From Haliotis asinina (taxonomy: Eukaryota; Mollusca; Gastropoda; Lepetellida; Haliotidae), in assembly GCF_037392515.1 (NCBI RefSeq), contig NC_090292.1, positions 42,335,747-42,399,746 of the forward strand: a stretch of DNA of 64,000 nucleotides, given 5' to 3'. The notes below the pieces were generated by a model that made no database searches, was not told the origin of the DNA, and worked only from the letters and a program-made list of their open reading frames with translations. Made by a program: the position numbers and the translations under genes. Positions 23,364-61,347 of this stretch are shown here, piece by piece; the stretch's first letter is position 1; each line of letters opens with the position of its first letter.

Positions 23364-26300
23364 ATGTTCGTCGCCCTCTTTGGTCTCCTGGCCCTAATGT
23401 GTCACCCTATGTCGGTGCTCGGCGCCCCTGAAGAGAGAGACGCCCGTATGTACACAGTGTACATCTACCTTCCCCCAAAGGAAGGGAGGGACGAGAAGGC
23501 CGACATACTGGAGATTAAAACCAAATTGGCGGGACTAACTGACATCAAGGTTCTGTTTTCATTTAAGGTAAGTGAAGGCATTGAATCAATAAATCGCTGT
23601 GAAGACTTAATGTAGATCGGGATTCAAGACAGATTGATTTGGGGTTTTTTTGTTTTGTTTTGTTTGTGTAACATTGCACTCAGCGTCTGCCTATGAATAA
23701 TCGGGTCTGGATTCGTTTTAGTTTCTTGTGTTACACACACGCCATGAAGGCTGGTTGAGCATGGTTTGTTGGTAGCAAATCGTGAAAGGAGCGTAAAGCT
23801 GCAATGCGTGGGTGTGTGTGTGTGGTCTAGTGTATGAGCTCGGGTCAAGAATCAGAGAAAGCTGAGCAACGTCGAGCTCGGACACTTGGATGGGTGACCG
23901 TGTTCGGTGACTTGATGCCAAAGACTTTCGTACTGTCCCACAACGATCAGATATGATATATGTGGTCTCATCTTAGGCAAGTGAGTTTGTTCAACATTGC
24001 CAGCATCCGGGTGAAATAAAGTCATGAGACTATAAGCCTGTAGCGCCTAAAAGACAGCATGGGTTATCCGGGGTAATAATAATAGTGTACCGCTTCGAGC
24101 CTGCCACTCCATGGTGTGGAATTCAGGGCATTATAATAACTTTATTATAATTGTTATTGTAATGGAGGCACCAACAAAATGATTGCTAAACATAAAATGC
24201 ATCAAAACTGAAAATTTAATCAAAAAGCGAATAAGCCACAACCCAAAAATCACCCCGTGACCTTTATGTGAGCGGACTTGCAACTGCACAACCTGTTGGA
24301 GCAGCTGCTCGACTGTTATGGGCACAGAAATGTATGGTTTGAGGCCACGCGTGCAACATGTGTTGATGGGTAGAGTGTCATCACAGACCTTGTGGAACTG
24401 ACTGCAGACTGCAGTTATTGGAGGTAGACGATATATCATTATGCAGCTTCCTATCCCCGTGGACACGACCAACGCTCAGCCATTCTTCAGTGACGAGACC
24501 CGTCTCCCACTGCGTTATGTCCATGTGGCGGGAAAAGGTGGGGACGTCATGCAGTTTTGTGATCCTCCGTTGGACAGATTTGGAGGGTTCGGTGTAATGG
24601 CTTGATGTGCAATACCTGCTAAAACTCGATTGCAATTGCCTCCAAATTGTAATTATACAGAATTGGGACCAAGCAGGGATGCGGCTCTTTTATAGCAGTT
24701 TTGATTGGCCCCGTTTTATGTAACACGAGTGGTGATTTCAACCACCAATATTAGAATGTGACCATGCTATGTATTACAGCAGATCCTCATAGATCCATTC
24801 CTATGGCGTTTCAGGAACTAACAAAGTAATGTTTCGTTTACAGGAACTCGGGAATTCAATGGTAATTCTGGGTAAGTTCGACTGTGAAACCATTTCTGCT
24901 TGATTATGTCTTACGAACTGGATATACATCTAATGTTGGCTTACCATATATCTGCTTAATACGATATATTACTATTTTACACCACGGTGCCTAGCAAAAT
25001 GAAATAGAGAAAAGTGTAACGTGATGCCTAGTATTCTGGATGATAAAATGAGACATTAGCTTTCAGAGTAGGAAGATAAAGCACAGTAAACATCTACATG
25101 TCACCTTACAAGAAACAACAACTGTCTTGCAGTTCTTCGTGTCGACAAAGCGTGCAGCTGGCCACAGTTGACGAGCTTCCTGGCACGCAAGGGTTATGAG
25201 GTCAAGGTGAAGCCAGTGTATTACTGCAGTGACTTCGCCCGGGAACTTGGTCTGAATATGACCAGAGACTTTTATGACACTACTCTCAAAGATGATGAGG
25301 ACTTACTTCTTGGCGCACAGATATTTCCTGTGAAAGGTAAGTCTGGCAGAGTGTTTGTGTGTTTAGTTATACATCTATTGCTGATGCATCGCTACATGTA
25401 CATACACCCTCCCTCGACAGTGCTCAGTCCCAAGATGCGGATGGGGGATTTGGGTACATATGGCAATCGTCTAGTCTAGGTTCAAATTCACCAAAGAACT
25501 GACATTTTTTTCTGGCAGAATTAATTCTTTTTTGGCACCTGCTCATCGTTTCCATACTGCTTTTTACACCATCGTATCAAACACAAAATTGCGTAGCTTC
25601 CATTAAATTGTCAATCTACTCAATCTGCTTGGGGAAATATGTGTCCAACTCCTATTCCAGAACCAACTACGACTTTTAAACTATAAGCATCATATCCTCA
25701 AGGCATATAATGAATCATGTTGTAACTGACGTTCCAGTGGTCCCACACGAACCTGCTTTTCATCAAATATATACCGCAAATCAAAAGTTAAGCGCTAGCC
25801 TATTCAAAACTAAGATGTAAAGCAGTAGAAATGTTAGACTGAACTGATTGGGAAGACCAATCCATATTTTGCGAAGGTTCATCTGGTAAATTATGATTTA
25901 GGGATGTCATAATCATTTGTACGTACAATTAAAGGAAATATTGTAACAGATATGTTGACAATGCTTTTAAAACCAAAATAGCTATTCCTGTGCTTATACA
26001 AGATTATTACAGTCATGTGAACATGTAACAGTCATTTCTGATTTTCACTTTTCAAAAGAATGTAAACTTTTTGAGGAAAACAAAATGCATGTTTTCCAAA
26101 AGTCCATGCATCCTGTTGAAAGTAAAAGACAAATTCCATTATGACTTTGTTTTTGAACTAAAAGTACGAAACCAAATAATGATAGCTCTGTCTGCATGCA
26201 ACCTCCATTTTTGCAAAATATACTGGGTGGCGCTTAACTTTTTATTCACGTTATACATTCCAGGTTTGCCAACAGCTATGTATGACGAGAAGCTGAGACA

Positions 26301-26775
26301 GATGTTTTTGAGAGACATAAGGATCCTTAACGCAGGTCAAAAGGCAGCATGTTTCAGAACTCTAGCAAGTCTTCCAGTGGAGGTAAACCGTTTTCCGTAG
26401 TTCATTAATCCCATACTTTGGCTTTCAGGGTGTGTTTCTGAGTTTCTAATTTCCCCATCACTAGCGTTGCACGTGGATTGAAGACAAGGTGGCCAACACC
26501 TGCTTGCATGTAATTTGCATTTTAAAGTTTGGTAGAAGGGTTTGCTACACCAAATTATCTCGTTATTGTTTGTTGAAAATACTGTAGTGGTTATCGTTCT
26601 TAAGAACACTTTGAAATGACTTCATTCTCTGTCCCTCTTTCAGCTGATACACTTCGCTCCAGTTGGCCAGAAGGCAATGGAAGCTATAGCGGAAACCTTG
26701 CATGCACCTGATTCATTCGATCTTGAAATCCTTCGGATCCAGCAGCTCGACACATACGCTGGGGGATGCAAGTGA
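23364..26775 (+). CDS. Secreted two-domain cysteine protein, paralogue A
   Basis: I do not recognise this family. Coding exons are 23364-23567, 24844-24871 (a 28-nt microexon), 25133-25336, 26264-26382 and 26644-26775. All introns are GT-AG, with phases 0, 1, 1 and 0. The product is 228 residues. A signal peptide (about 1-20, ending MSVLG before APEERD) predicts secretion. The mature chain reads as two beta-alpha-beta-beta-alpha-beta halves (about 29-108 and 134-221). Cysteines are at 85, 109, 175 and 227. N119 is in an NMT glycosylation sequon. The ATG is supported by identical starts in B, C and D; frame upstream of it is not ATG-initiated. AATAAA follows at 26801. Intron 2 carries a 5S-derived SINE. 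The fold is inferred from pattern; function is unknown. Confidence 0.85.
23832..24125 (+). mobile_element. 5S-rRNA-derived SINE (SINE3-like)
   Basis: AAGCTGAGCAACGTCGAGCT, then CGGACACTTGGATGGGTGAC and CGTGTTCGG match the internal promoter half of 5S rRNA. A body ending in TTCAGGGCATTATAATAA follows. The same family is on the minus strand at 52628-52975. It lies in intron 2 of gene A. Confidence 0.8.
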
Positions 26776-28110
26776 AAATATATGATTTCCAAACTGGCAA
26801 AATAAAGATGAAATATGCTAGTTTACTAAATTCCAATAAATAATATTTCGCTTTCCTTTCTTTTTCTTGTTATTTATAAGGTATCTTCTGTGGAAAGTTT
26901 TGACAACTATCCGTGTACAATCTGTTCTCGTTCCTCCATTCTGCAGGGCACGCTGCTCCAGATACGTCAACACAGATTACTTTTTGACAACTGAAAATAA
27001 CACATTGAAATTGCACATGAAATTCTTCATGAGGATTTATGTGTGTCACTAGATAAATGGAATATTTGAACCCAGTGTCTGGAATTTCTGGAATTCGTTG
27101 AGATGTTTTGTTGAATGCCCAGAATCCCACACACAGAAAGATACAGGCATTCACTACTATTCTTGCAAATCTCTAATCTGGTCTGCAGAGAATAATGCTT
27201 CAGACACAAAGGCACGTCTAGACAACCACGAACACCAGGCAAGCAATGAGGAACTGGTACAACTGGATCAGATTGTGGATGCTGAACATCAAATATCCAT
27301 CACTTCTACTCTCTACTCGTTTCTGCATTCTGCAGGGCACTCTGCGTCAGACACATTGACACAGATTACACATCCCTGCGATGTTTAAATCTGGTGACTA
27401 TCTAGACGTGAGTGTCTGGAAAAGATGATTTGTCACTAATCATCATCCTGTATATGACTATACTAAAATGCATATATCTCCTTATATTTCCTGGTATCCT
27501 TGCACAATCTGCATTCATGTCAGCGTTCTGCATGGAACAATGTCTCAGAATCAAAGACACAGACATGTCTAGAAAAAATACAAACACCATGCAAGAAATG
27601 TTTATCGCTGAAAGATGTATGCCCTTCAACGGTGAAATGTCAAAACTGAATTAGTTTGTTGATGGTGAATATCCAGTATTCATGAATTACACCCAAAGGT
27701 GTTCTTCAGTATCTATGTTCAATCTGCGTTCTTCAGAGCTTAATGATTGAAATACGACACAGAATTTACATCCCCGTGATGTGTAAATCTGGTGACTATA
27801 TGCAAGCGAGCTGAAAAAGGTGATTGGCCACAAATTATCATCATTTATATCATGATACTCAATGTTTACATCTCCTTCCTGGTTTCTTTATCACGTCCAT
27901 CCGAAAATATTACAGAAAACCCGACTGCCTTCCACTGTCCATACCTTTCACTGTCCATACCCTTCACTGTTTATACCACATTACTCATTTCATGTAACCA
28001 TCTTCATTTGTGCTATGCCTAGTGCTCTGCACAGCCTCCCTGACACATGTCTTTAATATCCTCATATCCTTAAAATAAACTCCGTGAAGATCTGGAAGAA
28101 CTGATCTTCA
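26776..28110 (+). repeat. Duplicated 3' flank of gene A
   Basis: About 1.3 kb downstream of the stop is alignable with 38857-40080 after gene B. Shared blocks include AATAAATAATATTTCGCTTT, CAGAATCCCACACACAGAAA, GATACAGGCATTCACTACTA, AAAGGCACGTCTAGA and TATCACGTCCATCC. It holds poly(A) signals at 26801 and 26834. No frame is conserved between the copies, so the segment is non-coding. A diverged version lies at 55200-55420 after gene D. Confidence 0.75.
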
Positions 28111-28124
28111 GTAATCGCATCTTG

Positions 28125-28375
28125 TCAAAAGGGGTGACCAGCGGGATCGGATAGTCATGCTCGCTCATTTGGTTGAGGCCTCAACCACCAGACTACCGTC
28201 CTCCACCGACACGGGACGCAACTCACGGCAAACAGGTTGCCCAGTTTGGTCGCCCCTTACGACCAGCAAATGTGGTGCTGTGGACACATGCTGTCACGGG
28301 TTCACACGGGAGAAGAGAACTTGAAATACCCAGCACCCACGACGTGGAGGTGGCTATTCATGGGTGCCTCTGTGG
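28125..28375 (+). repeat. Chimeric SINE-like / LINE-5'-type repeat
   Basis: GGGGTGACCAGCGGGATCGG, then ATGCTCGCTCATTTGGTTGA is the 3' part of the abalone SINE-like repeat in minus sense. It passes into the monomer-like sequence of 17075 (CAACCACCAGACTACC, CACGGCAAACAGGTTG, CCCAGCACCCACGACGTGGA). It sits where gene B's flank also carries a SINE (40085). Confidence 0.6.
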
Positions 28376-28532
28376 AAGAACACCCATTCACCAGAACCAC
28401 TTTAACTGTATTATGTCTAATCAGTTATGACATCAGTCCGTCACGTTAAGGAAATCATTGGCCATTAATCACATCAAGAGGCATATTCATATATGTTTCA
28501 CTGCATAAATATTGATCAACAAAATATTTTAC

Positions 28533-28720
28533 CTTTCAACAGATTGTGATGGTGAACACGGGCTGCTGACTGGTTTGTCAGTTGACATCCCCAAAATATA
28601 TAATACACGTCCATCAATTCGAAGTTCCCACTGCGCATATCAGCAAAAAGGCCGAGGACAAACGAGCACTCGTTCCTCCATATTCTATGCACATATGAAT
28701 ATTTATGAGATAGAATTTGC
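28533..28720 (-). promoter_or_regulatory. Orphan promoter and first exon, same type as gene A
   Basis: Reading the minus strand, CCTCGGCC, then CTGATATGCGCAGTGGGAAC, a TATA-like TATTATATATTTT (28591-28604), CAGTCAGCAGCCCGTGTTCA and TTGAAAG are followed by donor GTAAAATA, with the exon ending at 28533. It is homologous to exon 1 of A and D. No family exon lies downstream on this strand. Confidence 0.65.
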
Positions 28721-28831
28721 ATTAAAGAGCAATATTGGTGGCAATACAAGTTTTTTTGCTAGTAAACTGATCTAAACTATGGCATGCACTTATTCCACTC
28801 TTAGGGGAAAGTTGAGGCTCTGCACTTCGTA

Positions 28832-28978
28832 ATGAGTGATTGAGTTTGGACTTGCGCCACTTTTGGCAATGAGGGGCACCAGAAATGCGCTCCACATATT
28901 GGACCTATGTGGTCGAATCGAACCCGGGTTTTCAATGTGACGGGCGAAGGCTTTATCCACTAGGCTGCCTCACCATCA
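28832..28978 (-). mobile_element. tRNA-derived SINE with 13-bp target-site duplication
   Basis: The reverse complement has A-box AGCCTAGTGGATAAAGCC, B-box CGGGTTCGATTCG and the body GCGCATTTCTGGTGCCCCTC. TCTGCACTTCGTA flanks it at 28819-28831 and 28979-28991, a clean insertion signature. A fragment of the same family is at 40565-40690. Confidence 0.85.
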
Positions 28979-29129
28979 TCTGCACTTCGTAGCGTGCGCA
29001 CAGTGAACCCTGTATCTACGCAAGGCACGTAGTTACGTATCTTTACAAAGTTGGATACATCCATTCCACCAGACAACGTTTATCCCCTAAACTCCGCCAC
29101 ACTTCCCTTTCTCCATATTGATAAACTAA

Positions 29130-29460
29130 GAAGCTTTCTTGTGGGGTAAGGTGAGGCGAAATAGTGTCATGATAAAAATGTTTCACTCATATGCCGACGT
29201 GCATGCGTGTTTATGTGTGGCTGGTTGTAGTAGCCCAGATTTCAGCTGAGATACCAAGGTCATTGAGATACCACGCCTCAATTAAGAATGAATACCCCAC
29301 GCAGACACACTATATGGACTCCGAGCCAACCAACACAGTTTTTCCATGAACGCCGAGCGCCAGGCATGGACTAACAAGTACCAAATTTTAACGTCTGTTA
29401 TGAAGCGGTCGGGCATCGAACCCACGACCTTTCGCTCTATAAGAACAACATCCCGGAGAA
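29130..29460 (-). mobile_element. tRNA-derived SINE, inverted copy of 21608
   Basis: Its reverse complement matches 21608-21950 along its length, including the B-box region (GTCGTGGGTTCGATGCCCGA in minus sense) and CTGGGCTACTACAACCAGCC. It was present before the arm duplication. Confidence 0.8.
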
Positions 29461-30459
29461 GCTAGTCAGTGTTTCCAGAAAAGAAACAATAATGCATATC
29501 TTTGAATTTGTTACATGCAGCTAGTGACAGGGTTCGCTACAAGTAGTAACCTGGCTAGGGAGTAATATGTGAGATTGTCATAAAGATCATTGCAAGAATC
29601 ACATCACAAAGGAACAATAATTCCCAAACCTGCCACGAGAGGCAATAAACGCATCATCCGATGATGATCGACGTTTGGACTGTATGTAACACTTGGTCCT
29701 CCAGTTTGTATTTGTTTCACAGGATATAGAAAACTACATGAGCAAATATGACAAAGGTGTGTAAATATGGCAAAAATGAGTAAGCATGACAAAGACGTGT
29801 AAATATGACAAAGGTTGGCAAATATGACAACGTTGTATAAATATGGTCATCACTTTGACATTCATAACGCTGGTCATAATTGTAAATGCTTTCCACTAAC
29901 GATATATATTTTCGTATCCTTGAAATAATGCGTGACCAAATTGAGATACACCATTTCTGGAATACTCTCATAATTGCTCTGTATTAGGTAATAAGTAAAC
30001 ATTCATTCAACGGTTTCGTAATGTAAAGTTATTGCCAGAATTAGCTCATGAGAAAGTCCGTCATTGTCTTTTTGTTGCAATTGGTAACGTATGGTGTGAC
30101 GGTCCACTTTAACACTGTATTTTCCTATGTGAGTACCTGTTAACTGAGACTTCGTTGACGCGTTGAATACAACTGACATTAGACATGAACTTAACTGGGA
30201 CTTACAGAGAACATAATTAATATTTACTCATTGACGAGCAAACTGACACGGCTCAAAATTAACTCAGTGGCACCTTCCTAATTACAGGTAGTTAACGTTC
30301 TCAGGCCTCAAAGACTGCTGTCTCCTTTCATGTTACGGCACACAAGGCCAGTCGTTATTTGCATGTGTAAATATATTGACAAGTGTTCAATCATAAGATA
30401 TACTAGAGAAAAATGCATATAATTTAGCGATGAGGATTTTTATATTTTTTCTGTACAAA

Positions 30460-31040
30460 TCTGGTAGCCCCCCCCCCCTCCCCCCTTCACAAATAGCCCC
30501 CCACGCATCTGTTCAAAACAGCTGACCCCCTTATATTCTGTGGACAAAATGAATGAATCCACCCTGAACATCCTCATCGCGACGCCAGTGATAAATTATG
30601 AACACTCCCTTAGTTTATTCTTTAAAGGGGAACACTGCAAGACTTTGGTCTCATAGAAATATGTTCTCTATTCTACGTTTCACTTGTCAGTTTCCTCCAG
30701 GCGTCGTTGTCACTTTTAAAGGTCACGTATACTCAGTTTGCCTTCTCAAACCGATTTGTATGCGTATTTTAATTATTGTCTGAAACATGAACTTTGTAAA
30801 TACAAACAGAATAATACAATATACATTATTTTCTACACATTATACAATTCAAGTGCATAGATCAGCATGTATTATGTTCGGTCACATTTTGACTGCACTG
30901 ATGTTACAATACCAGGTGTTCGTGAAATTCGTTATACAATACCTAGTCAATATGATATACATTTCGCGATGTACATATAAATCATACGTTTCGAACAAAA
31001 TGTCTCGAAAACGCCAACTATGTACATAACATTCATATAT
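30460..31040 (+). repeat. C-rich tract and dispersed repeat (inverted copy of 10760-11110)
   Basis: Runs of C lie at about 30469-30486. From 30640, ATGTTCTCTATTCTACGTTT and GAACTTTGTAAATACAAACA match the reverse complement of 10760-11110. No gene. Confidence 0.6.
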
Positions 31041-34224: not shown

Positions 34225-34631
34225 CTTCTTGGTAGAGTGGCAGTTCCCCAGGAGCAACTTCTTGATAGAGCGGCAGTCTTCCCCGGGAGCAACTTCTTGA
34301 TAGAGAGGCAGTCTTCCCCAGGAGCAACTTCTTGATAGAGGGGCAGTCTTCCCCAGGAACAACTTCTTGATAGAGGGGCAGTCTTCCCCAGGAACAACTT
34401 CTTGATAGAGGGGCAGTCTTCCCCAGGAACAACTTCTTGATAGAGGGGCAGTCTTCCCCAGGAACAACTTCATGATAGAGAGGCAGTCTTCCCCAGGAAC
34501 AACTTCTTGATAGAGGGGCAGTCTTCCCCAGGAGCAACTTCTTGATAGAGGGGCAGTCTTCCCCAGGAGCAACTTCTTGATAGAGAGGCAGTCTTCCCCA
34601 GGAGCAACTTCTTGATAGAGGGGCAGTCTTC
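34225..34631 (-). repeat. 35-bp minisatellite, 12 units
   Basis: Units starting CTTCTTGATAGAG recur every 35 bp from 34258 to 34608, after one 33-bp unit at 34225. Because 35 is not a multiple of three and the unit lacks stops on the minus strand, all three minus frames stay open (up to 160 codons). Those frames are artefacts of the repeat, not genes. Confidence 0.95.
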
Positions 34632-36551: not shown

Positions 36552-38856
36552 ATGTTCCTGGTCCTCTTTGGCCTTCTCGCCCTGTCGTGTCTCCCATTGT
36601 CGGTGCTCGGCGTCCCTGAAGATAGAGACGCCCTTATGTACAGAATGAACATCTACCTTCCCCCAAAGGAAGGGAGGGACGAGAAGGCCGACATACTGGA
36701 GATTAAAACAACAGTGGCGGGGCTAACTGACATCAAGGTTCTATTTTCATTTAAGGTAAGTGAAGGCACTAAATCAATAAATTGGTGCAAAAACTTTATG
36801 TGGATTGGGAGTTAAGATAGAATTGTTTATTTTGTTTTGCTTGTTTAAAACCGCACTCAGCGTGTATGGCTCAAGGATGCACAATCAGTTGAAGGAATTG
36901 TTCGATTCCTGAGCTCTAGTTGGCACAGAAATACATTGTTTGAGGTCACATATGCAACAAGTGTTGAGGGATAGAGGGTCAAATCAGACCTTGTGGAATT
37001 GATTGCACACCGCACGTATTCGAGGTAGACGTCCTGTCTAGGTATGTGACATACACAGCAACAACAACAGCAACAGCAGCTAATTTCCCCTCATATGCCA
37101 ATTACTTTTTGTAGAATTCAGTAAATGACTTTGTGAACACCCTAGCCTGTAAATCGACCCGAGCCGGTAAATCGACAATGACCAATCTAACACAGACTTA
37201 GATGATTTATTGAGTGAAATGGATTCAGCACCATCAAGAAAACACCATGCTTCAACATTAGCATGCATCTCTGTCCTGTAAGTCCCAACTTGTAGCTGTC
37301 ACTGGACAATTTGACGCAGCACAAACTCTTTCAATGGGAGGAGATATATTGATCTCATGAATGTTGCTGCTGCTGTGGCTGCGTCTGCCACGAAGGTTGA
37401 GAAGGGGGTATTCATCTACAAGGAACTGGGCCTAAAGGGTTCAAATAAATTAGGTCACACAAGCTCACACACTGGTGTGAATCATCGTAATGGTTTAAGA
37501 TGGAATGACTGCAATTCCACCCAAATTGTCCTTGTGAGTGGTGATTTCAACCACCAATATTAGAATGTGACCATGCTTTTTATTACAGCATATCTTCTCT
37601 TACCTATGCCTATGGCGTTTCAGGAACTAACGAATTAATCTTTCTTTCACAGGAACTCGGGAATTCAGTGGTAATTCTTGGTAAGTTCAGCTTTGAATCA
37701 ATTTGACTTGATTATGTCTCACATACTGGACATGCATCTAATTGTTGCTTGCCACATATCTGTGTTCTACTACTGTGTAAGTACATTCTACTACTAAATT
37801 ACACAATAGTGTGACTGAAAAATGAAACTGAATAACGTGTGACTTGTTGCCTAATCTTCTGGCTGTTTACATGAGACATTAGTTTTCAGAGTAGGGCCAT
37901 AAAGCTGAGTAAGAAACTATATGTTACCGGACAAGAAACAACAATTGTCTTGCAGTTCTTCGTGTCGACAAAGCATGCAGCTGGGCACAGTTGACGAGCT
38001 TCCTGGCACGCAAGGGTTATGAGTTCAAGGTGATGCCAGTGTATTACTGCAGTGACTTCGCCCGGGAACTTGGTCTGAATATGACCAGAGACTTTTATGA
38101 CACCTTTCTCGAGGCTGATGAGGACTTACTTCTTGGCACACAGATATTTCCTGTGAACGGTAAGCCTGACAGTGTGTTTGTGTTTTAAATGATTTTATCA
38201 AGCACAACAGTTTACAATTACACAGCTTACATTAAATTATCAATCTACTCAATCTTCTTGGAGACATTAGTGTCCAAATCCTATTCCAGAACCAACTATG
38301 AATGTGTTCAACTACTAATCCAGGAAACACTGTACCTTTGTCCTGGAGGCATATCGTGAACAATGTAGAAACTGACTTTCCAGTGTAACTAACTTTCATT
38401 CAAATAAACATTCTAGGTCTGACAACAGCTGAGTACAACGAGAAGCTGAGACAAATGTTTGTGAGAGACATAAGCATCCTTAATGCAGGTCAAAAGGCAG
38501 CATGTTTCAGAACTCTAGCACGTCTTCCAGTGGAGGTAAACCTTATTGCACAGTTCAATAATCCCATACTTTCAGGTTGTTGTTTTTTTAGTAATTTGCA
38601 TTTTAAAGTGTTGTAGAAAGGTGTGCTATACCAAATTAAGTAGTTATTGTTTGTTGAAGATACTGTGGTGGTTATCGTTCTTAAGAACACTTTGAAATGA
38701 CTTCATTCTCTGTCCCTATTTCAGCTGATACACTTCGCTCCAGTTGGCCAGAAGGCAATGGAAGCTATAGCGGAAACCTTGCATGCACCTGATACCTTCG
38801 ATCTTGAGATTCTTCGAATCCAGCAGCTTGACACATACGCTGGAAGATGCAAGTGA
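36552..38856 (+). CDS. Secreted two-domain cysteine protein, paralogue B
   Basis: Coding exons are 36552-36755, 37653-37680 (28-nt microexon), 37956-38159, 38417-38535 and 38725-38856, all GT-AG. Lengths and phases are identical to paralogue A, giving 228 residues. The signal peptide ends LSVLG before VPEDRD. All four mature cysteines (AGRCK at the end) and the NMT sequon are kept. Differences from A cluster near the N-terminus and around residue 128 (F here), while most of exon 4 is unchanged. It is the most compact copy (2.3 kb). The longer ATG-less frame upstream is untranslated leader. It shares its 3' flank with A. Function unknown; an intact, probably expressed duplicate is inferred. 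Confidence 0.85.
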
Positions 38857-43384: not shown

Positions 43385-46300
43385 ATGTTCGTGGTCCTCT
43401 TTGGTCTGCTGGCCCTGTCGTGTCTCCCCCTGTCGGTGCTCGGCGTCCTTGAAGATAGAGACGCCCATATGTACAGAGTGAACATCTATCTTCCCCCGAA
43501 GGAAGGGAGGGACGAGAATGCCGACATACTAGAGATTAAAACAAAACTGGCGGGGCTAACTGACATCAAGGTTCTGCTTTCATTTAAGGTTAGTGAAACC
43601 AGTGCATAACCGTTTGGTAATGCGAAACCAACCCACGTTGCTTGTCGAAAGATACGACTAAGTGTGGATCCTACGGATAGGTTAGTCTCTGCCCTTGTTC
43701 AAATTATTCCATTGAAAGAATGAATGGAAATTTTAATGGCACACAGTGTCGGGTCCAGTGTCAGCTCGGGGTCAGCTCGTCCTGGAAAGATATTTCAACA
43801 CCACAGCTTTAACATCTTACTTATTCATTTCAATCAGTTGAGCGAAAACGCAAGCGCAGACAGACACACCCACACACATTATAAACAGAGGCAGATATAC
43901 CCCTTCAGCGTACACAAGCACTGGCTCTCTCGTTTGTTGGCTTTCAGTCTCCTTACTTCTCGCAAACATTAACGCACGAATCTTTCTTTAACAGGAACTC
44001 GGGAATTCGATGGTAATTCTTGGTAAGTTCAAATCTTATATGTTTTTATACTTGTTAAGAGGAACCCATCTGGTGTTAGTGTGATAAAATGTGCACGTTA
44101 AAACATATGACTTTATGCGTAGCCATCTGTCAGTTTAAATGAGGCATGAGTGTCCAGTAGGAAACTACTAAGACGAAACTATATGTTACCTGACAAGAAA
44201 CAACAACTGTCTTGCAGTTCTTCGTGTCGACAAGGCGTGCAACTGGCCACAGTTGACGAGCTTTCTGGCACGCAAGGGCTATGAGGTCAAGGTGACTCCA
44301 GTGTATTACTGCAGTGATGTCGCCCGGGAACTTGGTCTGAACATGACCAGAGACTTTTATGATACAGTACTCGAGGATGATGAGGACTTGGTGCTCGGCA
44401 CGCAGATATTTCATGTCAAAGGCAAGCAATGACATTGAATACATTTTTGTGCATTTTGCTATACGTCTATTGTCAGAACGATACTTTTGTACTCGCAACT
44501 AGACAAAGGTTTACCAGACCTTTACAGATCTCCCAAGGTGTTGATATGCTTTTGGTTAAGCATGACAATCATCAAGCGGTTGTAGATGTTGAGTTGATTT
44601 GAGATTTACGCCGCACTCAGCAAGATTCTGCTATACGGCGGCGGTCTGTAAATAAGTGGCAGAGCCCCAAAAGGGTCGGAAAATACAATTCTGCTATTTA
44701 ACGAATATGGATCTCTCGAGGACATGGACGTAACTGAAAACGTCCATTCTAGGGTCCACGGCTTGTCGCCCTCAAAAAAAGGTACGGGGTAGATCCCCAA
44801 TCAACCCACCTGAAAGGTAATGTCTTAGAACAGTGAGTGAGTTTAGTTTTACGCCGCACTCAGCAATATTCCAGTTATATTGCAACGGTCTGTAAATAGA
44901 CGACTCTGGACCAGACGATCCAGTGATCAACAACATGAGCATCGATGGGAGCATTTGGGAACGATCATGTAAAAGTTGGGGTTTAAATAACTGTTGTAAA
45001 AAGGCAAAACACGGAATGCTGAACAGTCCACAATTCGCAAGTGTTTTGCCAAAACACCACTATCTATTACTTCAATGGAAAGGACTGTGAACGTGATGTC
45101 ATTCTTTCAAACTGAGCTGTGTTCTCTTTACCATGCGGCTAACTGTTGAAGTACACACGGGGCAAAGACATATATATAACCTAACACCAGACACAACATA
45201 AGGAATGAAATAGCTCCCAAAATAATCAGTCTACTGATAATTTGATCCATTTTGGGTAACTAGCGTCTAATTAATATGACACAAACATTGCTTCATCCAA
45301 ACAATGTTATATATTCCAGATCTGACAACAGCAGAATATGACGAAGTGTTGAGACAAATGTTTGTGAGAGACATGGGCATCCTGAAAGCAGGTCAACGGG
45401 CGGCTTGTTTCAGAACGCTAGCAGGTCTTCCAGTTGAGGTAAACCCTCTTACACGGTTTCTTAACCCTATACCTATCTTTCTAGGTTTGTTTCTTTGCTT
45501 CTAAATTTTCCATCACTACTGTCCTTCCTTGCACATGGAATACACACGCCGTTTAGAGTGGAGAACACTTACTCACTGAGTGCTCATTGTTTAATTATCT
45601 TATTGTTATTCTGTTATAAATATTGAATATTATATCATATAAAATATGTCATAATGTAATTTTGTTAACATCTCGTAAGATTATTCAATGAAAGTTATCA
45701 TCCATACTGTAGTATTGGTTCATCTATAGTTTTATTGCAACATATGTCATATGTGGGATTTCACTTTCTCAGTAAAGTACAAATTCTAGTACTTTTTTAT
45801 TTTTTGGTCGAGTCCCATCCGGGATTCGGAGTGGGCTAGGCGGCTGACTTTGTGTGCTGGCGATTAGCTGCCTGACTCTGAGGGTGCGGGTTCGAATCCC
45901 GGATGGGACTCGACCAAAAACAGAAAGTACTTGAATTTGTACTTTACTGAGAAAGTGAAATCCCAAATATGTTGCATTTGACCACTTTCTAAATGACATC
46001 GTGTATCATATAATTTTATTGATCTTTGATTTAATGATTAATAGTTCTCATCACGATATGGCTGAAATATTGCGGATGTCAAAATAAATACTAACAGATA
46101 AACCCCAAATATTATTCATACCATGAATTAGTCGTTAGTATTCAATAAAACGTGATTAAGCTGTTTGCCTAATGCGTTTAATGGTTACACCGTGTTCTTT
46201 AGGAAAAAGATAGATGTTTTGTGTACTGAACCTAGTCATCGTGATTTCGGTTAATTCAGAATACTTTTGGGTGCATTGTATAGCTTAATCTCAAACAGCT

Positions 46301-46897
46301 ACACTCATGTGCCATATTTAAGTTCACAAAATGGCCGCTGTGATTCTGTTTCCTTTAAATGAAAGTTTATTTTATCTTGGCAATAGTTATAGTTTATAAA
46401 ACTTTAGGGGGTACAAATTACATGTTACATTTTTTTTAAAAAAAGGGGAATAACTCTCATGGAGTTAGGACGTCCTACCGACACCGTCACATTTGAAAAC
46501 AGTGTGCCCTAGAAACATTGGTTTCTTTATGCAGCCTAATTTTAAAGCACAACACCATATTATTTGTTTGTGTTGGTGTATAGTGATGGTTATTACTCAT
46601 GAGAACATTTCACCAGACTCTTTTTCCATGCAGATACATTATTATTAATGTATTAATGTACTATTAATATTATCAATGCTGTATTATTCAAATATTGTAA
46701 AAAGGCGCCAACTTCCCTTGCTCTAGTTTGTTCAAGGTTTTACGCTGACTTAATTACTATTTCAGGTGATACACTTCGCCCCAGTTGGTCAGAAGAAGAT
46801 GGAGGCTATAGCGGAAATCTTGCATGCACCTGGTAACTTTGATTTTGAAATCCTTCGCATCCAGCAGCTCGATCGGTACACTGGGGGATGCGAGTAA
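43385..46897 (+). CDS. Secreted two-domain cysteine protein, paralogue C
   Basis: Coding exons are 43385-43588, 43995-44022 (28-nt microexon), 44218-44421, 45320-45438 and 46766-46897. The layout matches A and B, with 228 residues and a TAA stop. The donor after the 204-nt third coding exon is GC (AAAG|GCAAGC), a known minor class; other introns are GT-AG. The signal peptide ends LSVLG before VLEDRD. All four mature cysteines and the NMT sequon are kept. Residue 128 is V, and the C-terminus is GGCE rather than GGCK. Intron 4 contains a LINE/SINE chimera (44590-44955) and intron 5 a fold-back tRNA-like element (45738-45974). AATAAA follows at 47091. Function unknown. Confidence 0.83.
44590..44955 (+). 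mobile_element. SINE / LINE-ORF1 / SINE composite in intron 4 of gene C
   Basis: A SINE-like piece (TTTACGCCGCACTCAGCAAG to GGTCTGTAAATAAGT) is followed at 44655-44830 by about 175 bp matching the end of the LINE ORF1 at 15520-15690 in reverse complement. A second SINE-like piece (GTGAGTGAGTTTAGTTTTAC onward) follows to 44955. The right junction is the same as at 15520. Confidence 0.8.
45738..45974. mobile_element. Fold-back element with an internal tRNA-like sequence
   Basis: The left arm (45738-45829) and right arm (45893-45974) are inverted copies over about 80 nt. GGGATTTCACTTTCTCAGTA, then AAGTACAAATTC pairs with GAATTTGTACTTTACTGAGA, then AAGTGAAATCCC; GGTCGAGTCCCATCCGGGAT pairs with ATCCCGGATGGGACTCGACC. 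The 63-nt centre has an A-box-like TGGGCTAGGCGG, and GGGTTCGAATCCC spans the centre/arm border as a B box. Dispersed unit; family not known to me. Confidence 0.75.
46040..46098 (+). mobile_element. LINE 3' tail fragment
   Basis: AGTTCTCATCACGATATGGC, then TGAAATATTGCGGATGTCAA is the family 3' end. It lies in intron 5 of gene C. Confidence 0.5.
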
Positions 46898-53229: not shown

Positions 53230-53740
53230 AATAAATTATATATTCATGGTCAAAGTGTATGGTCACATATTGGTCACATCGATGACGTGGTTGATGGGTA
53301 CAATGTGTTTGGGCCCCCATGTGTCCTCCTAAGTGATATTACTAGAATATTACCAAAAGCTAACTACTTACTCCCAAAACGGGAGTATATATATATATGG
53401 TATATGCATCTTAACTGTACGTCATTTCTGAAACATATTCGACATTGAAGGTCACGCTTATTGATGACAGATATAATGTTCCAATATAACGGAAAATTAC
53501 ACGCATAATGAATGTGCTTTATGTTTCACCTCGACGAAGCATAAATTGAGAATTGGATGTGAAGTGTGGGTTATTCAACTAAAAATCAGTGATCGATGAT
53601 CAATTCATCAACAATATAAGTGATCCTCAATGCATTAAAGCATTACATTACTAACTCATGACGAGTATAGAGCCTTACAACTGACGTAGCCTCTGAGGTG
53701 AAAATGAAAAACGCCTCAACGTTCATTATCCAGTTGTGAA
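53230..53740. other. No recognisable gene
   Basis: A short TA run (about 53388-53400) and AT-rich sequence. Nothing else identified. Confidence 0.4.
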
Positions 53741-53744
53741 GCAC

Positions 53745-53945
53745 AGTGGTGCCATGGTTAGCATGCTGGCTTCTCGCGCCAAAGGTTCTAATCCTGGTGG
53801 AGATATCAAAATGTGTGACCTAGGTCTCACACTGTTGGACAAAGCACTTCGTCCACATTGTACTCAGTCCACCCAGCTTCAAAAGTACAATTCCGTCAAG
53901 GCAACAGTGTAACGCCAGAAAACAGCATCGCGTTGGATTCTAGAG
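53745..53945 (+). mobile_element. tRNA-like SINE
   Basis: AGTGGTGCCATGGTTAGCAT (A box), then GCGCCAAAGGTTCTAATCCT (B box) and the body GGTCTCACACTGTTGGACAA, CACTTCGTCCACATTGTACT. Family inferred from promoter-box spacing. Confidence 0.55.
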
Positions 53946-53984
53946 GCAAAAAATGTCATTTTATCGTATAATTATTATTTACAT

Positions 53985-54095
53985 ATCACTTGTGATATTC
54001 TAGTTATTTTACTGCCCTTCGATGACAGGTTATACAATATACATATATTCCTTTTCAGTGTTAAATGTTCTCGTCACGATATGACTGAAATGACC
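53985..54095 (+). mobile_element. LINE 3' end fragment
   Basis: GATATTCTAGTTATTTTACT, then GCCCTTCGATGACAG and GTTCTCGTCACGATATGACT. It is 5' truncated. Confidence 0.55.
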
Positions 54096-54099
54096 CAGT

Positions 54100-55195
54100 G
54101 ATTCAAACGTGAATCTTTTGTTTGTTGTTCTCTGATCCGTGGTCCATTCCTTTTGTAACATTTCTTCGCAAGCATAATAAGACAATTTCTCATAGGTATG
54201 GGCCGTCGAAATAAAAGTATTCCAGAATACATATCAAACACACATCACACCCGTCCGCCTTCTTCAGAGCACACCCGTCCCTCATCAAGGGAAGCAACTG
54301 CACCCTGGCTGCCAACGGTAACCGCTAAACATAAATTGCGATTTTTCGCTTGACTCCTGTTACAGTAAATACAGCAAGAACATACAAAAAGAGGAATCAT
54401 GAAACAGTGCACAGCTTACATGTATGGATATAGTTATATCTGAAAACTGAACGAGGTACATAAGTAGGCTGTGGTGGTGTCAATGTAATTAAATATATAA
54501 CGCTCGATTATTGAGATCAAATGAATTTGTATGAAGTAATCGTGCCATGTTTGTTGTTGACTACAGAGACTATACTGTTTAGGGATGAATAACAATATAT
54601 GGATGAACTTCTCGTCTTTTTTACTTCAGCATTCACTCATATAGTGTTACCCATCCTTATTGCTATAACTTCTAAATGACACCAAACATGTGCAGATGAT
54701 GTTTGTTTTCCGTTGTACTAGTCCAGAACCCCACATAACTAAGCTAACATATTGTCAGAAGTGACACAATAGTTTCAATTTCCAGCGAAACACATTGAAT
54801 AGAATATGCAATGCATGTAATAATGAAGGCCACTCTAATATGGTAAAAGATACAAAAAGAATTGAATCAAAGGAACTTGTGACATACACATTTAGAAATG
54901 TGACACTCGACTGAGGATGTATGACAATGAGGATATTAGGTGACCTTTTGTGTCGATATGACTAAGCGATCCGGTTCTGATAGGGGTAGAGATCTTTCGC
55001 GGGTTCCGCTCACACTGGTGCTTTGTCCTTGGTGGCCAAATTAACGTGTCTTTGTCGCTGTGTCTTGAGCAATGTATCTTCCAAAACGCTGGAATGAATG
55101 CAGCTTGTACACAGGTACTGAAGACACCGTGTCCGGTTGTAACATTCGGTCATTGAAGGGCACTTACATGGACCTTTCAGCACTACACATTTTTT
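54100..55195. other. No recognisable gene
   Basis: Only short frames. CACACCCGTCC occurs twice (54246-54290). A tRNA-like stretch near 55000 (GCGGGTTCCGCT) lacks a matching A box. Confidence 0.4.
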
Positions 55196-55199
55196 GTTT

Positions 55200-55420
55200 G
55201 GTGTTAGTGGTTATTTAGACGTGTCTGTGTAGTAATGTCTGAAACAGTGTTCCCTGCAGAATGCTGACCTGCATACAGCTTGTGCAAGGATACCAGGGAA
55301 TGCCTGAATCTTTCTATGAGAGATTCCGGACATTCATATCTCAATGAATTCCAGCAATTGAAATGTTCCACTGATCCACTGCAACGACAAGTGTGTGTTT
55401 TGTGATCCAAATCCCATTCC
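55200..55420 (-). repeat. Diverged 3' flank of gene D
   Basis: In minus sense TTGCTGGAATTCATTGAGAT, AAAGATTCAGGCATTCCCTG, TGCAGGGAACACTGTTTCAG and AGACACGTCTAAATAACCAC match the flank segment after A and B (27060-27400 and 39280-39660). The duplicated block therefore reached about 0.4 kb or more past the stop in all three. Confidence 0.55.
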
Positions 55421-55594
55421 AGCTTTCAGTAACACAGTTTTTTCAATGACATGAAAGAGCAATAATGAAGCAGTTTATTCAGCAAAATATGATTACGTAG
55501 TCTCAAGTTTTTAAATTCATGAACGGTAGACAGAGAAGAATTATATTTCATCTTTATTGTGTCAGTTTTAGATGTATGTGGAAATGATATCTTT

Positions 55595-58500
55595 TCACTT
55601 GCATCCTCCAGTGTATGTGTCGAGCTTCTGGATTCGAAGGATTTCAAACTCGAAGTTATCAGGTGCATGCAAGGTCTTCGCCATAGCTTCAATTGCCGTC
55701 GGAGTAACTGGGGCGAAGTAAATCAGCTGAAATGGCGACACATAATTTCCTTTCAAAATGTTCTTAAGAGCGATAACCACAACAACGTTCTTAAGAGCGA
55801 TAACCACAACAACTTCTTCTCAAACCACTTATCCCACAAACTGAACCAAACTGTACTCACTTGATTTGTTTTGGGGGATGGTATTACTCTTTCGCTCCAA
55901 AATTATATTGACAGCATAACGTCAGCTACAAATGTTTGTGAACGATCACACTGTACGCATTACACACATTACGCAATCAATGAAATTATTTTACTGGTTT
56001 TAGAAACTCATTTGTATATGGAATTCTGGTATCATAATGTGTCATATTTTTTGGAAATGAGCTCGCAAATGTTTAGTGTACAATTTACATTGCTCTAGTA
56101 TAAGAGACGTTACAGAAAAGGAGTATAATTCAGCAATTAAATGCAAAGAGGGCAACTCAGTTAAGACAATGAACTTACTGTGAGCGGGTACGTGAAATGA
56201 GTTTGATTTCCTTTAAGGCATGGCATGTTCATATGGAGGGTGAGCTGAGGTCAGGTTGAGATGGGTTGTACATCACATCGACAATGTTCCAGCCATATAG
56301 TGACGAGGTCAAATCTGATTTCATACTCATTTTAAGTACAAGGTACAAATGTGATTACATTTTATTGTTTAAAAAACAGAAAATGTCGCAGCACCAAATT
56401 AAAAAGTAGGTAATTTGTTACTACAATGTATGGTTTACATCAACTTCCCTATAGCTAACAATGAGATGTCGGTTGACACGGGTAAGTAGGTTTTTCAAAT
56501 TGTTACACTTCATAATGGGAATCCCTTGCAGTCGAAAAATCTAATGGGTGCCTCTGACGGGGAATCGATGTGTCTTTATTTTAAACCGGGCTGTTGGGAA
56601 GCCATGTAGTAAGATATGTAGTTTGACACCCCGTCTCCCTGCCCAACATGGCGTGTCACAACGGACGATACTGCTAGACACATATTAGATGATCCTGCGC
56701 ACTAAACGCATTTGTGACAAGAGAGGCGGTACAACGAATTCGGCGAGTACACTTGGCTGCTACAGGTAGCTTGACGATTATCCACGTGCAATACATGCTA
56801 ACCGTGACATGAAATCAACACCGCATATCCCTTCAAATGATAAGACTGCAATTTCAGGCATAAGATGCTGATATTCCACGCTTACCTTTAGTTAAGACGA
56901 AGACAAATAGATGATTGGGGCATTGACAAGCATTTTAGATATTCAACAATTTTGTTAAAACAAAACCCCAAGAAAATGTCATCGGTGGTCCTAAACATAT
57001 TTGCTCAGTATATTGTGTTGATTCAATTCGTTGGGATGGTACCTGTTCCCAAATCGAGTGTGCTTTAACAATTCATGCGTGAAACGCACGGGGAAAATGA
57101 ACTTCTCGATATTTATCAGACAACCTGTCTCCCTTTTGTTTCAAGTGGATCGTTCTGTGGGGCGTTCCCAAGTATGCAAGTTTGGGGTCATTTGTCATTT
57201 GGATCATCTTACATGTGTTTACCAGAGGTAGTATTGGGGCCTGCCGATGTAATATTGCAGCGGATTTTCAAGATGCTAAAATCGAAGATAAGGTGGTGAA
57301 TACCCCTCGAATTTGACGTGAAATGCTGCAGCTGTCTACTAGGTTAAAGGTAAGGACTGAGTCTGTCTCCCACCCGTCTAGGCAAAGTTAGGGTCGAATT
57401 GCTGTCTTGGAGTAAGGAATATTATTACCCACGGCAAACATATTGCCAACTAAGACCGCATCATACGGCCAACTTAGGGTACTGTAGGCCTATTCGACCC
57501 TGACTCCACACGGGGTTGAAGAGCCACTTGCGTTACCTAACACGCACCAAGAGGAGGCTGCTCGTCAAGGGTGCATATGGTGGGAGGAAAATACAAAGGT
57601 GTTTGGGAAAATAAAAACTCAGAAACATACGTATGGGATTAAATAAGTGTGCAAGAAGGTTTACCTCCACTGGAAGATTTGCTAGAGTTCTGAAAGATGC
57701 GGACGGTTGACCTGCGTTCAGGATGCTTATGTCTCTCACAAACATTTGTCTCAGTTTCTCATTATACTGAGCTGTTGTCAAACCTGGAATATATATTTGA
57801 AAGAAAGCATGTTTCATGGGAGAGCGCTGGAAAGTAAACATCCCTTCAGGTCACAGATACAAGTGAGTGAGTTTAGTTTTACGCCGCACTCAGCAATATT
57901 ACAGCTATATGGCAGCGGTCTGAATAATCGAGTCTGGACCAGACAATCCCGTGATCAACAACATGAGCATCGATCTGCGCAATTGGGAAACTATGGGCAG
58001 ATGCCAGAAAGAGTGCCATAGAGAATTTGGACCAAGACTGACTATAGTGTTTACCCAAATCCAACATCAACATTTTGCAACCTGTCAGGGGATTATATCA
58101 GGTTTTATGTACATTTAGCGATGCTCCAGCGATAGATGTATAATTAACCACACACAGACTCTACCAGGCATACCTTTCACAGGAAATATCTCTTTGCCCA
58201 GAAGCAGGTCCTCATCATTCTCGAGAGAAGTATCATAAAAGTCTCTCGTCATGTTAATACCAAGTTCCCGGGCAAAGTCACTGCAGTAATACACCGGCGT
58301 CACCTTCACCGCATAACCCTTGCGTGCCAGGAAGCTTGTCAACTGTGGCCAGCTACAGGCTTTGTCAACGCGAAGAACTGCAAGATAATTGTTGTTTCTT
58401 GATCAAGGAAAATGTACTTTATCATCTCTGTGATCTAATTCTGAAAACTAGTGTTTCATTGAAACAGTCAGAAGATAGTCCCATTTTACTCAATTTCATT

Positions 58501-61347
58501 TCAGTGACCTTGTATTGTAATATAGTAATATATTGTAGAAAGCGAATATATGTCAAGCAGAAATGAGATATATGTGTAGTTAGTTAAAATGGTTTCATAA
58601 TTGAACTTACCAAGAATTACCATTGAATTCCCGGGTACCTGTTAAAGAAACATAAATTCGTCACATACTAATATTGATGGTTGCAATCACCACTCGTGTT
58701 ACCTTTAATATTCCCAGTCAGAACCGCAGTATAAGAACTAGCTGGTTGTTGGCAGAAATTGCATCTCCAGCCATTACACTGAACACTCCAAATCTGCCCA
58801 TTTTGCGAACACAAAACTGCGATTTGTGAGCCACGGCATACTTGCCTTTTTACTAAATGTTACTTGTACGATGTATAATCAAGCGTTCACGGCAGTCGCC
58901 AAACCGTGCTCAAGCAGTCTTTAAGAAACGAAGTTGAATTACCCTTTTCATTATCGCCAATTCAGGACATTTTAGCAAACGAACAAGCGCGAAGGAAGGC
59001 TTAAAGTATCAGAGCAGGAACATTTTCAACCATGAAGAACTCTCTTAAAAGTACTTAGGGCTAAAAGAGATCCCTTGACATATGTACAGGTGTTACGAAA
59101 GTGTATTTTCTGTAAATTGTATTACTGACTGGGTGATAATTGTTTAGAATTTTGCGTGGTAGTCATTACGGGTCACACTTCGTATCATAAATGCTCAGTG
59201 CTATTAGTATTTTACCTGCAGGCCTTTAACGAAGTGATCTAGAGTTGCCTCCCTTGACTAGTTGTGTTTACCTCCGGGAGACTACAAGAACATTGTAAGT
59301 TAATGGCGATGATCGTATCGTGCTCGAATGTTTGAGAATCAATAAATGTGTATATAATGGCTGGTTGGTGTGTTGACACGGATTAACCGGAGTACATCAT
59401 TCCGCCAAACATCAAACTGCCTGCCTTTTTCAACGCTCGACGAATATGACGGCTACCTGATCGTTCGCCACGTTACATTCAGTATTTCTGTTTCTCACTC
59501 TCAAACCAAGACTTTGGTGAGTTGCTATAACATTTTTGACCCAGTGCTTCAGATTTGACTCAGCTGCCTTGTACATGAAACCCCTTTTGTGAATCTTTGT
59601 ATCTTGCTTTCTGCTCAGTACAATATATAAACCGGGCTGTTGGGAAGCCATGTAGTAAGATATGTAGTTTGACACCCCGTCTCCCTACCCAGCATGGCGT
59701 GTTGTATTTTCCTGGTTTTGACGGAATTTCTTATACCTTTTGTCACGGCAAATTTCTAACCGGAACAAACCAAATCAGTTAATGATATTAGTATTTTGAT
59801 GATTGATATTTTATCTGTGTGTCAATAAATAGATATATCCTTATCAATAATTTCAAAATTTGCATATATCCTAAGTATTTTGTCCAGTTTAGACATTTGC
59901 ACAATTTAGTGATTCTCAACTTTGAGTGGTCGATCGTCTTTTGGATGCCAGAACGAGGTTCAAAGATTTCACCATGTTAAGTTGTATGCTAAGCTTGTCA
60001 ACAAGATCTCGAAGGAACAGTTCACTGGATTCCTTTCATATTCAGCATCATGTTCTACCTAACAATGACGCAGGGCCGAGTTCAGTTTGGTGACCTTCAC
60101 TTAATTTGACAGTTCATTGCATCGCTTTGAGGATTTCAGAATGTTTGCATGTCAAAATTGTCAGCAATATATCTCTCAAGAATAGCTCCCTGGATTTTCT
60201 TCATAGACTTTCACGACTTCCCTTGAATGTTTAGGCAATTTCTTTGTTACTATATTTCCACATTTCGTACACTATGACATTTCTATCAAGAGCAAAGTGA
60301 GTCTTGAACATATTTGTGCGTTTCAACAACTACAGAGCCAGACATAAAGAAAGACTGATTGTTTTGGTCGACATTGAACTTCATCTTAAACTACGAACTT
60401 CACTTTCATTACATATTAAATTTGATTTGCGTCGGGGGATTATGTCCCGTTAGTGACAGTGCTTGTTTCATACTTTGTTTCATACTTTGTTTCATACTTT
60501 ATTAGTACTTTACTTAAACATGGTTTGCAATATGAAAATGCCAAACCGTGGTAAAATTGGCAAAGTCAATGACTTGGTCAAGATGCACGGAGACATTACT
60601 GGACGTGCGAAGTTGGCAACTGTTCATTTGATTATGGTTGATACAGGATCCCGTTAGGCTTGAGCAGTTTCGTTTCGTCTGCGTACTAATACAGAACTTG
60701 CGGCTTGGAGTTCAGGTATACAGGTTTCTTGTTTTAATTACAAAATGGGCAATGGATAGAATCACCGACGAGGTATGAATGATTACGGGATATATCACCT
60801 TGGTGAAATTGATGTTGAAGTCCCTCGCTAAAGATCGGTACAGTGAACATTAATTTCTCTGGGGAAGCATTTCTCGTAATCACTCGTAACTCTCAACTTG
60901 TTGGTTATTCTCTAAGTATCCCAATTGGGTACATCGATGTCCACGCTGTTATCACTGGATTGGCTTGTCCACATTCATAGGCGGTGGATCCAAAGGAGTG
61001 GTGGGGTGGGTAATGGGGTGTTTGTACGTGAAATTGTGTTAACGGACCATAGAAACACCCGATCCCACCTTCTCAAAAAGATGCATCTGCCCCTGAGACT
61101 CGGTTATTACGCAGTGATTCATTGATTCAATGATTTCACTCACCATGAATGAAAATAGAACCTTCATGTCACTAAGTCCGGCCACTGTTGTTTTAATCTC
61201 CAGTACATCGGCATTTTCATCCCTACCTTCCTTCAGAGGAAGTGTAATATTCACTTTGTACATACGGGCGTCTTTATCTTCAGGGACGCCGAGCACCGAC
61301 AGGGGCAGACACGACAGGGCGAGGGGTCCAAGGAGGGTCACGAACAT
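55595..61347 (-). CDS. Secreted two-domain cysteine protein, paralogue D (inverted)
   Basis: Coding exons on the minus strand are 61347-61144, 58638-58611 (28-nt microexon), 58377-58174, 57783-57665 and 55726-55595. The layout matches A-C, all introns are GT-AG, and the product is 228 residues. Exon 2 starts at 61407 after acceptor CCTTTAG. The signal peptide ends LSVLG before VPEDKD. Cys85, 109 and 227 are kept, but the position-175 Cys is Ser (QPSASFR against QKAACFR). Residue 68 is Met before a GTGAGT donor, and an extra NIT sequon appears at residue 33. The microexon encodes VPGNSMVIL instead of ELGNSMVIL. It is the longest copy (5.8 kb plus a 2.5-kb intron 1), its introns filled by repeats. 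AATAAA lies at 55558-55553. Function unknown; the frame is intact. Confidence 0.82.
55760..55813 (-). repeat. 27-bp exact tandem duplication before the last exon of gene D
   Basis: GTTCTTAAGAGCGATAACCA, then CAACAAC occurs at 55760-55786 and again at 55787-55813. It lies 30-90 bp upstream of the acceptor. Genes A and B have one copy of the related GGTTATCGTTCTTAAGAACA in the same place. Confidence 0.85.
56255..56325 (-). mobile_element. LINE 3' tail fragment
   Basis: CATCACATCGACAATGTTCC, then AGCCATATAGTGACGAGG is the family 3' end in minus sense. It lies in intron 5 of gene D. Confidence 0.5.
56581..56658 (+). repeat. 78-bp repeat shared with 59627-59703
   Basis: TAAACCGGGCTGTTGGGAAG, then CCATGTAGTAAGATATGTAG and TTTGACACCCCGTCTCCCT match 59627-59703 with only about two or three differences. 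Both copies lie in introns of gene D (intron 5 and intron 2). Confidence 0.8.
56650..57200 (+). repeat. Unidentified dispersed repeat, second copy of 20110
   Basis: See 20110-20490 for the shared blocks. It lies in intron 5 of gene D. The central 56825-57100 part is not shared. Confidence 0.55.
57350..57580 (-). repeat. Fragment of the LINE 5'-type monomer
   Basis: CCACCCGTCTAGGCAAAGTT, ACCCACGGCAAACATATTGC, and ACGCACCAAGAGGAGGCTGC resemble 17075-17352. Diverged. It lies in intron 5 of gene D, near the 57665 donor. Confidence 0.5.
57868..58000 (+). mobile_element. Abalone-type SINE-like repeat, 5' part
   Basis: GTGAGTGAGTTTAGTTTTAC, GCCGCACTCAGCAATATTAC, CAACATGAGCATCGATCTGC, GCAATTGGGAAAC. 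Well kept, 3' truncated, in intron 4 of gene D. Confidence 0.8.
59091..59409 (+). mobile_element. Possible solo LTR (fossil), uncertain
   Basis: The segment starts TGTTACGAAAGTG. It carries a promoter-like and AATAAATG region near 59340-59356 and ends near CCGCCAAACA, giving a TG...CA outline of about 320 bp. No internal domains or partner LTR were found. Gypsy-type is a guess. It lies in intron 2 of gene D. Confidence 0.25.
59627..59703 (+). repeat. 78-bp repeat shared with 56581-56658
   Basis: Near-identical to 56581-56658 and in the same orientation. TATATAAACC marks its left edge. Confidence 0.8.
59710..61140. other. Intron 2 of gene D, no further elements recognised
   Basis: A CATACTTTGTTT unit is repeated three times at 60468-60500. 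A 64-codon plus frame at 60463 resembles no known protein. Otherwise unassigned. Confidence 0.4.

Follow-up and report, generated by a model that had tools for sequence, protein, structure and literature searches.

To which protein family do the four clustered genes of this abalone locus belong, and what does their kinship say about the origin of that family? A sequence-only reading of the 64-kb stretch analysed here (the window, C13:42335747-42399746) had described four intact copies of an unrecognised, lineage-specific secreted protein. Genes A, B and C on the forward strand and D on the reverse strand were rebuilt from the window (Table 1) and indeed have five coding exons of 204, 28, 204, 119 and 132 nt, the last including the stop, with intron phases 0, 1, 1 and 0 and a single open frame of 228 codons each. 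Their splice sites are usable, with AG at all 16 acceptors and GT at 15 of the 16 donors; the remaining donor, after exon 3 of C (window 44422), is GC where A, B and D have GT. An AATAAA signal lies within 200 nt past the stop in the four genes, as had been noted. TATA promoters had been claimed for all four, and strict boxes near the ATG are found only in B and D: over 300 nt from the ATG, gene A has no TATA[AT]A motif, and the motif lies at -137, -298 and -109 in B, C and D, respectively. Inspected by eye, the N-terminal ~20 residues of A-D are mostly hydrophobic and end in VLG, in agreement with a family of probably secreted proteins. A tblastn search of the 64-kb window with the four products (E ≤ 1) found no further copy; the only match besides the exons of A-D was short and isolated (36% identity, E 0.65) and fell within an intron of gene A.

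Table 1. Coding features of genes A-D, in window positions
Feature	Position	Strand	Remark
Gene A, ATG to stop, 228 aa	23364..26775	+	rebuilt from window
A coding exon 1 (204 nt)	23364..23567	+	
A coding exon 2 (28 nt)	24844..24871	+	
A coding exon 3 (204 nt)	25133..25336	+	
A coding exon 4 (119 nt)	26264..26382	+	
A coding exon 5 with stop (132 nt)	26644..26775	+	
Gene B, ATG to stop, 228 aa	36552..38856	+	rebuilt from window
B coding exon 1	36552..36755	+	
B coding exon 2	37653..37680	+	
B coding exon 3	37956..38159	+	
B coding exon 4	38417..38535	+	
B coding exon 5 with stop	38725..38856	+	
Gene C, ATG to stop, 228 aa	43385..46897	+	rebuilt from window
C coding exon 1	43385..43588	+	
C coding exon 2	43995..44022	+	
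C coding exon 3 (GC donor)	44218..44421	+	
C coding exon 4	45320..45438	+	
C coding exon 5 with stop	46766..46897	+	
Gene D, ATG to stop, 228 aa	55595..61347	-	rebuilt from window
D coding exon 1	61144..61347	-	
D coding exon 2	58611..58638	-	
D coding exon 3	58174..58377	-	
D coding exon 4	57665..57783	-	
D coding exon 5 with stop	55595..55726	-	

Other features of the window include, at 12016-15051 on the reverse strand, frames that by eye resemble a LINE endonuclease, reverse transcriptase and RNase H, and an inverted pair of ~313 bp, 97.8% identical (15373-15685 and 44654-44965), which is probably a young mobile element copy. Tandem repeats occupy 34225-34631 (35-bp unit), 19586-19767 (32 bp), 22305-22410 (5 bp) and 1-263 (30 bp), and no Rfam family was found in the window at the gathering score.

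The resemblance among A-D is far beyond chance. A, C and D are 80-87% identical to B over 228 residues, 153 of which are invariant across the four copies, and the pooled Nei-Gojobori pN and pS of 0.095 and 0.274 give a ratio of 0.35 (pairwise dN/dS 0.23-0.43), which indicates that selection has kept these proteins. A-D are thus under purifying selection, and the argument from full frames and conserved splice sites to real genes under selection holds. The description of exon 4 as nearly frozen does not: exons 2 and 3 are the most conserved part, with 59 of 77 residues invariant (exon 4, 27/40; exon 5, 24/43; mature exon 1, 30/48; signal part, 13/20) and the lowest pooled ratio, 0.25, against 0.41 in exon 4 and 0.43 in exon 5. 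Residue 128, located in exon 3, is indeed different in each copy (T, F, V and S in A to D), and the same is true of residue 181 (S, R, G, N). Two such sites in four sequences are too few to support the binding surface that had been proposed from residues 128-139.

The search was extended to the whole assembly (1.143 Gb, 159 contigs), in which product B gave 68 matches at E ≤ 10, including the window's own exons. On contig C13 these lie in the window and at sites 11-44 kb upstream of it; on C11 they lie at ~2.00-2.24 Mb, at six copies between 4.36 and 4.67 Mb and at one weak site at 3.95 Mb; on C15 they lie at 42.6 and 45.8 Mb. The family is spread over these three contigs. Eight further members, five from C11 and three from C15, were assembled and joined to A-D in a 12-row alignment, in which identity to the first C11 row ranges from 27% to 58% among the other 11 rows. 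These twelve rows are fewer than all members in the genome: the partial loci L032, L034, L035, L037, L038 and L049 were left out, together with five of the six near-identical C11 copies and a trial gene E, and one C15 protein (42.628 Mb) is incomplete, ending with the edge of the sequence used. The five-exon plan of A-D is common to the eight added members. At all nine further loci searched, those on C15 included, a 28-nt exon came out as the best candidate for exon 2. Across the 12 assembled members, even where identity falls to 27-31%, the positions and phases of the four introns correspond.

Several of these loci have features of their own. Upstream of the window, C13:42291970-42324344 (L031, L032) holds the candidate fifth gene, E, whose first three exons share 123-130 of 145 residues with A-D; the only nearby exons 4-5 lie 29 kb further on and match at 42-48 of 83 residues. 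With compatible frames and splice sites, E could be either a chimaera, a product of gene conversion or two remnants. At C11:4360095-4667690, the six near-identical copies are spaced 59-60 kb apart and each matches exons 1, 3, 4 and 5; one TAA stands inside every exon 5 match, ending the frame ~3 codons earlier than in relatives in copies one and two, where this was seen. Finally, exon 1 occurs twice with the same matched protein sequence at C11:2018395 and 2030977 (L034, L035), 12.6 kb apart, and no other exon was found in the 9.5 kb analysed for each, save a stray weak match.

Enlarging the family revealed its kinship. Searched with HMMER against the PDB (177,635 sequences), the 12-member profile matched two chains of 9uaj, the apple-snail PV1/ovorubin complex PcOvo: 9uaj_E, 'Perivitellin ovorubin-2' (E 4.8e-8), and 9uaj_A, 'PcOvo5' (E 4.1e-4), the next match being at 0.47. 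A profile of six of the nine rows from outside C15 retrieved the PcOvo matches at 4.1e-6 and 0.0071, followed by 0.5. For the three C15 rows alone, 9uaj_E ranked first at an E of 0.097, with the next at 0.18, a result that is weak by itself. Any profile holding PcOvo rows matches PcOvo in the PDB by construction and was kept out of the evidence.

Profile-profile comparison used a profile of the five PcOvo chains as the hhalign target, with E-values that hold for one comparison. The 12 members reached a probability of 97.2% (E 4.5e-11), and their score of 71.4 was three times the best of 100 column shuffles (maximum 22.9). A-D alone scored 37.7 (E 1.9e-5; shuffle maximum 21.7, n=100), the C15 rows alone 38.3 (E 1.5e-5; shuffle maximum 20.0, n=100), and six C13/C11 rows gave an E of 1.4e-9. 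In none of these four comparisons did any of the 100 shuffles reach the real score, and reversed profiles scored 11-18. The homologous stretch covers ~135 residues (profile positions ~53-190) with few gaps in the aligned core; ~50 N-terminal and ~35 C-terminal residues have no confident alignment to PcOvo. Successive aligned blocks, abalone against PcOvo, read 'LFSFK|ELGN..VVLVLEV' against 'LYSFKALGAPSYHIVVEV' (a bar is set at the border between exons 1 and 2 of A-D), 'CSDFARELGL' against 'MVDVAETLGV', and 'GLTTAEYNEKLR' against 'GLTSQESEAHLK'. In pairwise BLASTP against the five PcOvo subjects, the best E was 1.1e-9 (30% identity over 135 columns, with a C11 member), and the best A-D row reached 3.8e-4; such weak single-sequence scores for A-D may explain why ordinary searches miss the kinship with PV1. 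Searches of the abalone genome with the PcOvo2 and PcOvo5 fragments found no member, an uninformative result for single queries against short exons split by introns. In a tree of 17 rows, one branch (support 100/99) separates the five PcOvo rows from the twelve abalone rows, as expected if the two groups expanded separately after descent from one ancestor; this tree is unrooted, its PcOvo branches are long, and nine of its 14 inner branches are open.

The match to PV1 might be due to chance or convergence, A-D then belonging to an unrelated orphan family restricted to its lineage. Consistent with this, the A-D profile alone gave no PDB match (HMMER, E ≤ 10), and no family exceeded the cut-off in Pfam with the 12 members (best E 0.011, RBD_DGKtheta, with 2 members, then 0.23) or in NCBIfam with A-D (best 0.089). 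Such an origin is nevertheless very unlikely, given that the C13/C11 and C15 profiles, which have no row in common, each align with PcOvo beyond every shuffle, that the HMMER matches to PcOvo are strong for both larger profiles, and that the PV1 score rose on adding the eight members. The labels unrecognised and lineage-specific are thus not supported: with the eight added members, the profile matches PV1/ovorubin, and a strong match of this kind, to a family already named and characterised, is what the sequence-only reading had set as its own refutation, so that its placement is largely overturned. We conclude that A-D are probably tandem members of an old gastropod secreted family that also gave rise to PV1/ovorubin.

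Among other families, PHROGs gave nothing over the cut-off (best 0.014), and two of the five PcOvo fragments gave nothing over the cut-off or below E 0.01 in the family databases. An enzyme origin was also considered, namely a muconolactone-isomerase-like or other dimeric alpha/beta-barrel protein, perhaps with tandem ferredoxin-like halves. By eye, the exon 1 stretch (RVDISLPPKEGRDEASDI...) and a guessed order of strands and helices recall CatC (PDB 1mli); hhalign sets this stretch in register over 21 columns, and the isomerase scored 18.4 against the PcOvo profile, above 100 shuffles (maximum 17.6), yet with a probability of 2.6% and an E of 0.018. Against the abalone profile the probability was 2.4% (E 0.02) and two of 100 shuffles scored as high, while PF02426 gave one match in the genome, below the cut-off at E 5.8, in a test that is weak when exons are split. 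CatC thus resembles the abalone proteins in a short stretch and a guessed topology and differs in giving no significant profile score, which makes this relationship extremely unlikely. Membership of the muconolactone isomerase family (PF02426) was rejected, there being no significant profile match and an abalone score within the shuffle range. An internal tandem repeat was likewise rejected: when the two halves were compared with each other, 65 of 100 shuffles scored as high, and adding the PcOvo rows gave a probability of 0.8%.

PV1 has been regarded as an apple-snail novelty. In the sections consulted, PMC5696525 presents the PcOvo subunits as carotenoproteins exclusive to Pomacea with no similarity to any known sequence, and PMC6129957 lists five of six P. 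canaliculata perivitelline genes as single-gene families among nine species. Extracts of PMC13336756 (2026) report that PV1 makes up 84.7-90.8% of perivitelline-fluid protein in three aerial-egg apple snails, extend it to other ampullariids and describe it as limited strictly to Ampullariidae, with no occurrence in other gastropods. Among the matches listed, titles and abstract openings in the open-licence PMC literature mentioned no PV1/ovorubin relative beyond the apple snails, and that literature yielded no paper on 9uaj.

The same extracts of PMC13336756 infer a viral capture of PV1, said to have helped snails lay eggs on land, from Foldseek and Protrek hits, a tree in which PV1 is nested among viral sequences, elevated GC3 and the lack of PV1 in 16 other molluscs. 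Extended to the present family, this would mean that the abalone genes and PV1 were both captured from viruses, separately, or one of them from the other lineage, their likeness reflecting a common outside source. We consider such separate captures rather improbable. Four introns that agree in position and phase across 12 members, on three contigs, argue against them, and pattern scans and tblastn found no relative in IMG/VR, which is mainly phage, or in a prokaryote genome collection. Raised GC3 is not specific, since the GC3 of A-D (0.50-0.56) likewise lies above the window GC (0.403). Lastly, according to the extracts of PMC13336756, the absence from other molluscs rests on BLASTP at 1e-5 and at least 30% identity; in our five-sequence database, six of the best 15 abalone-PcOvo pairs have at least 30% identity and only two also pass 1e-5, and fewer would pass in a proteome-sized search.

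Confinement of PV1 to Ampullariidae, as worded in those extracts (PMC13336756), does not hold for the present genome, which carries egg-lysin exons. Six matches to egg lysin exceeded the Pfam cut-off, and one such exon shares 27 of 47 positions with sperm lysin 3lyn, as counted from the alignment. Since egg lysin occurs in abalone and in some other vetigastropods, the host is an abalone or a near relative. An ampullariid host was considered and rejected, because the PcOvo2 and PcOvo5 queries find no member in this genome, which does have the lysin exons. An intron-rich family in so distant a gastropod argues against both an Ampullariidae-only PV1 and a viral origin. It is therefore likely that PV1 is neither an apple-snail orphan nor viral, but one branch of an intron-rich secreted family present in the ancestor of caenogastropods and vetigastropods. 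That family would have given rise to apple-snail PV1, the main subunits of the egg carotenoprotein, and to an abalone branch including A-D; apple snails would have recruited it for egg provisioning, and abalone would have retained and expanded it for some other purpose or for an ancestral reproductive one.

Regarding function, the homology suggests that, after signal cleavage, the ~208-residue chains of A-D would fold as PV1-type subunits and, like PV1, form oligomers together with their paralogues. They would be stabilised by disulphides, predicted from the cysteines at residues 85, 109, 175 and 227 of A-C (D lacks the third), and could be N-glycosylated at the NMT found at residue 119 in the four copies. 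In abalone they may thus act as secreted storage proteins or as carriers of a hydrophobic ligand, possibly a carotenoid. Apple-snail PV1 comes from the albumen gland, dominates the perivitelline fluid of the egg and forms protease-resistant oligomers that bind carotenoid. Abalone spawn freely, with naked eggs and no albumen gland, so the ancestral role would not be tied to aerial eggs. As for the tissue, our first guess is reproductive, and the second is mucus or other secretions. A PV1-family protein serving in abalone as an immune or mucus effector, rather than in storage or reproduction, is possible though doubtful. Family and function may part ways, and recent tandem growth, including the six near-identical C11 copies, and the two sites with a different residue in each of A-D would suit a defence gene; against this, no part of the genes reaches a pooled pN/pS of 0.45.

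With a storage or ligand-carrying role as the favoured guess, the interest of the locus is evolutionary: the PV1 family is newly found in a lineage from which it was said to be absent. Abalone relatives with conserved introns make the origin of PV1 directly testable, supply outgroups to root it, and offer a system outside the ampullariids in which to ask what the fold did before its role as an egg protein.

The closest known system is PcOvo of Pomacea canaliculata (9uaj chains A-E: PcOvo5, PcOvo3s, ovorubin-1, 'Perivitellin protein' and ovorubin-2). Both families consist of chains of ~200 residues (in abalone, the length predicted after cleavage) with 12-26% identity (15/122 to 34/133) over the ~135-residue core, and chains E, A and C carry an N-x-T at a column where a C11 member has one. 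Both are encoded by tandem paralogues, with four genes in the window and more on C11 and C15. They differ first in their hosts, abalone and ampullariid. Secondly, a cysteine is conserved at column 112 in 12 of 12 abalone rows and at column 179 in 11 of 12, whereas three PcOvo rows compared lack both. Thirdly, the abalone family occupies at least three genomic sites and PcOvo one array. Finally, the termini cannot be aligned, and the abalone proteins are known here from their genes alone. The PV1-like genes of Pila, Lanistes and Marisa, likened to the abalone family by their description in extracts of PMC13336756, have similarly grown by tandem duplication.
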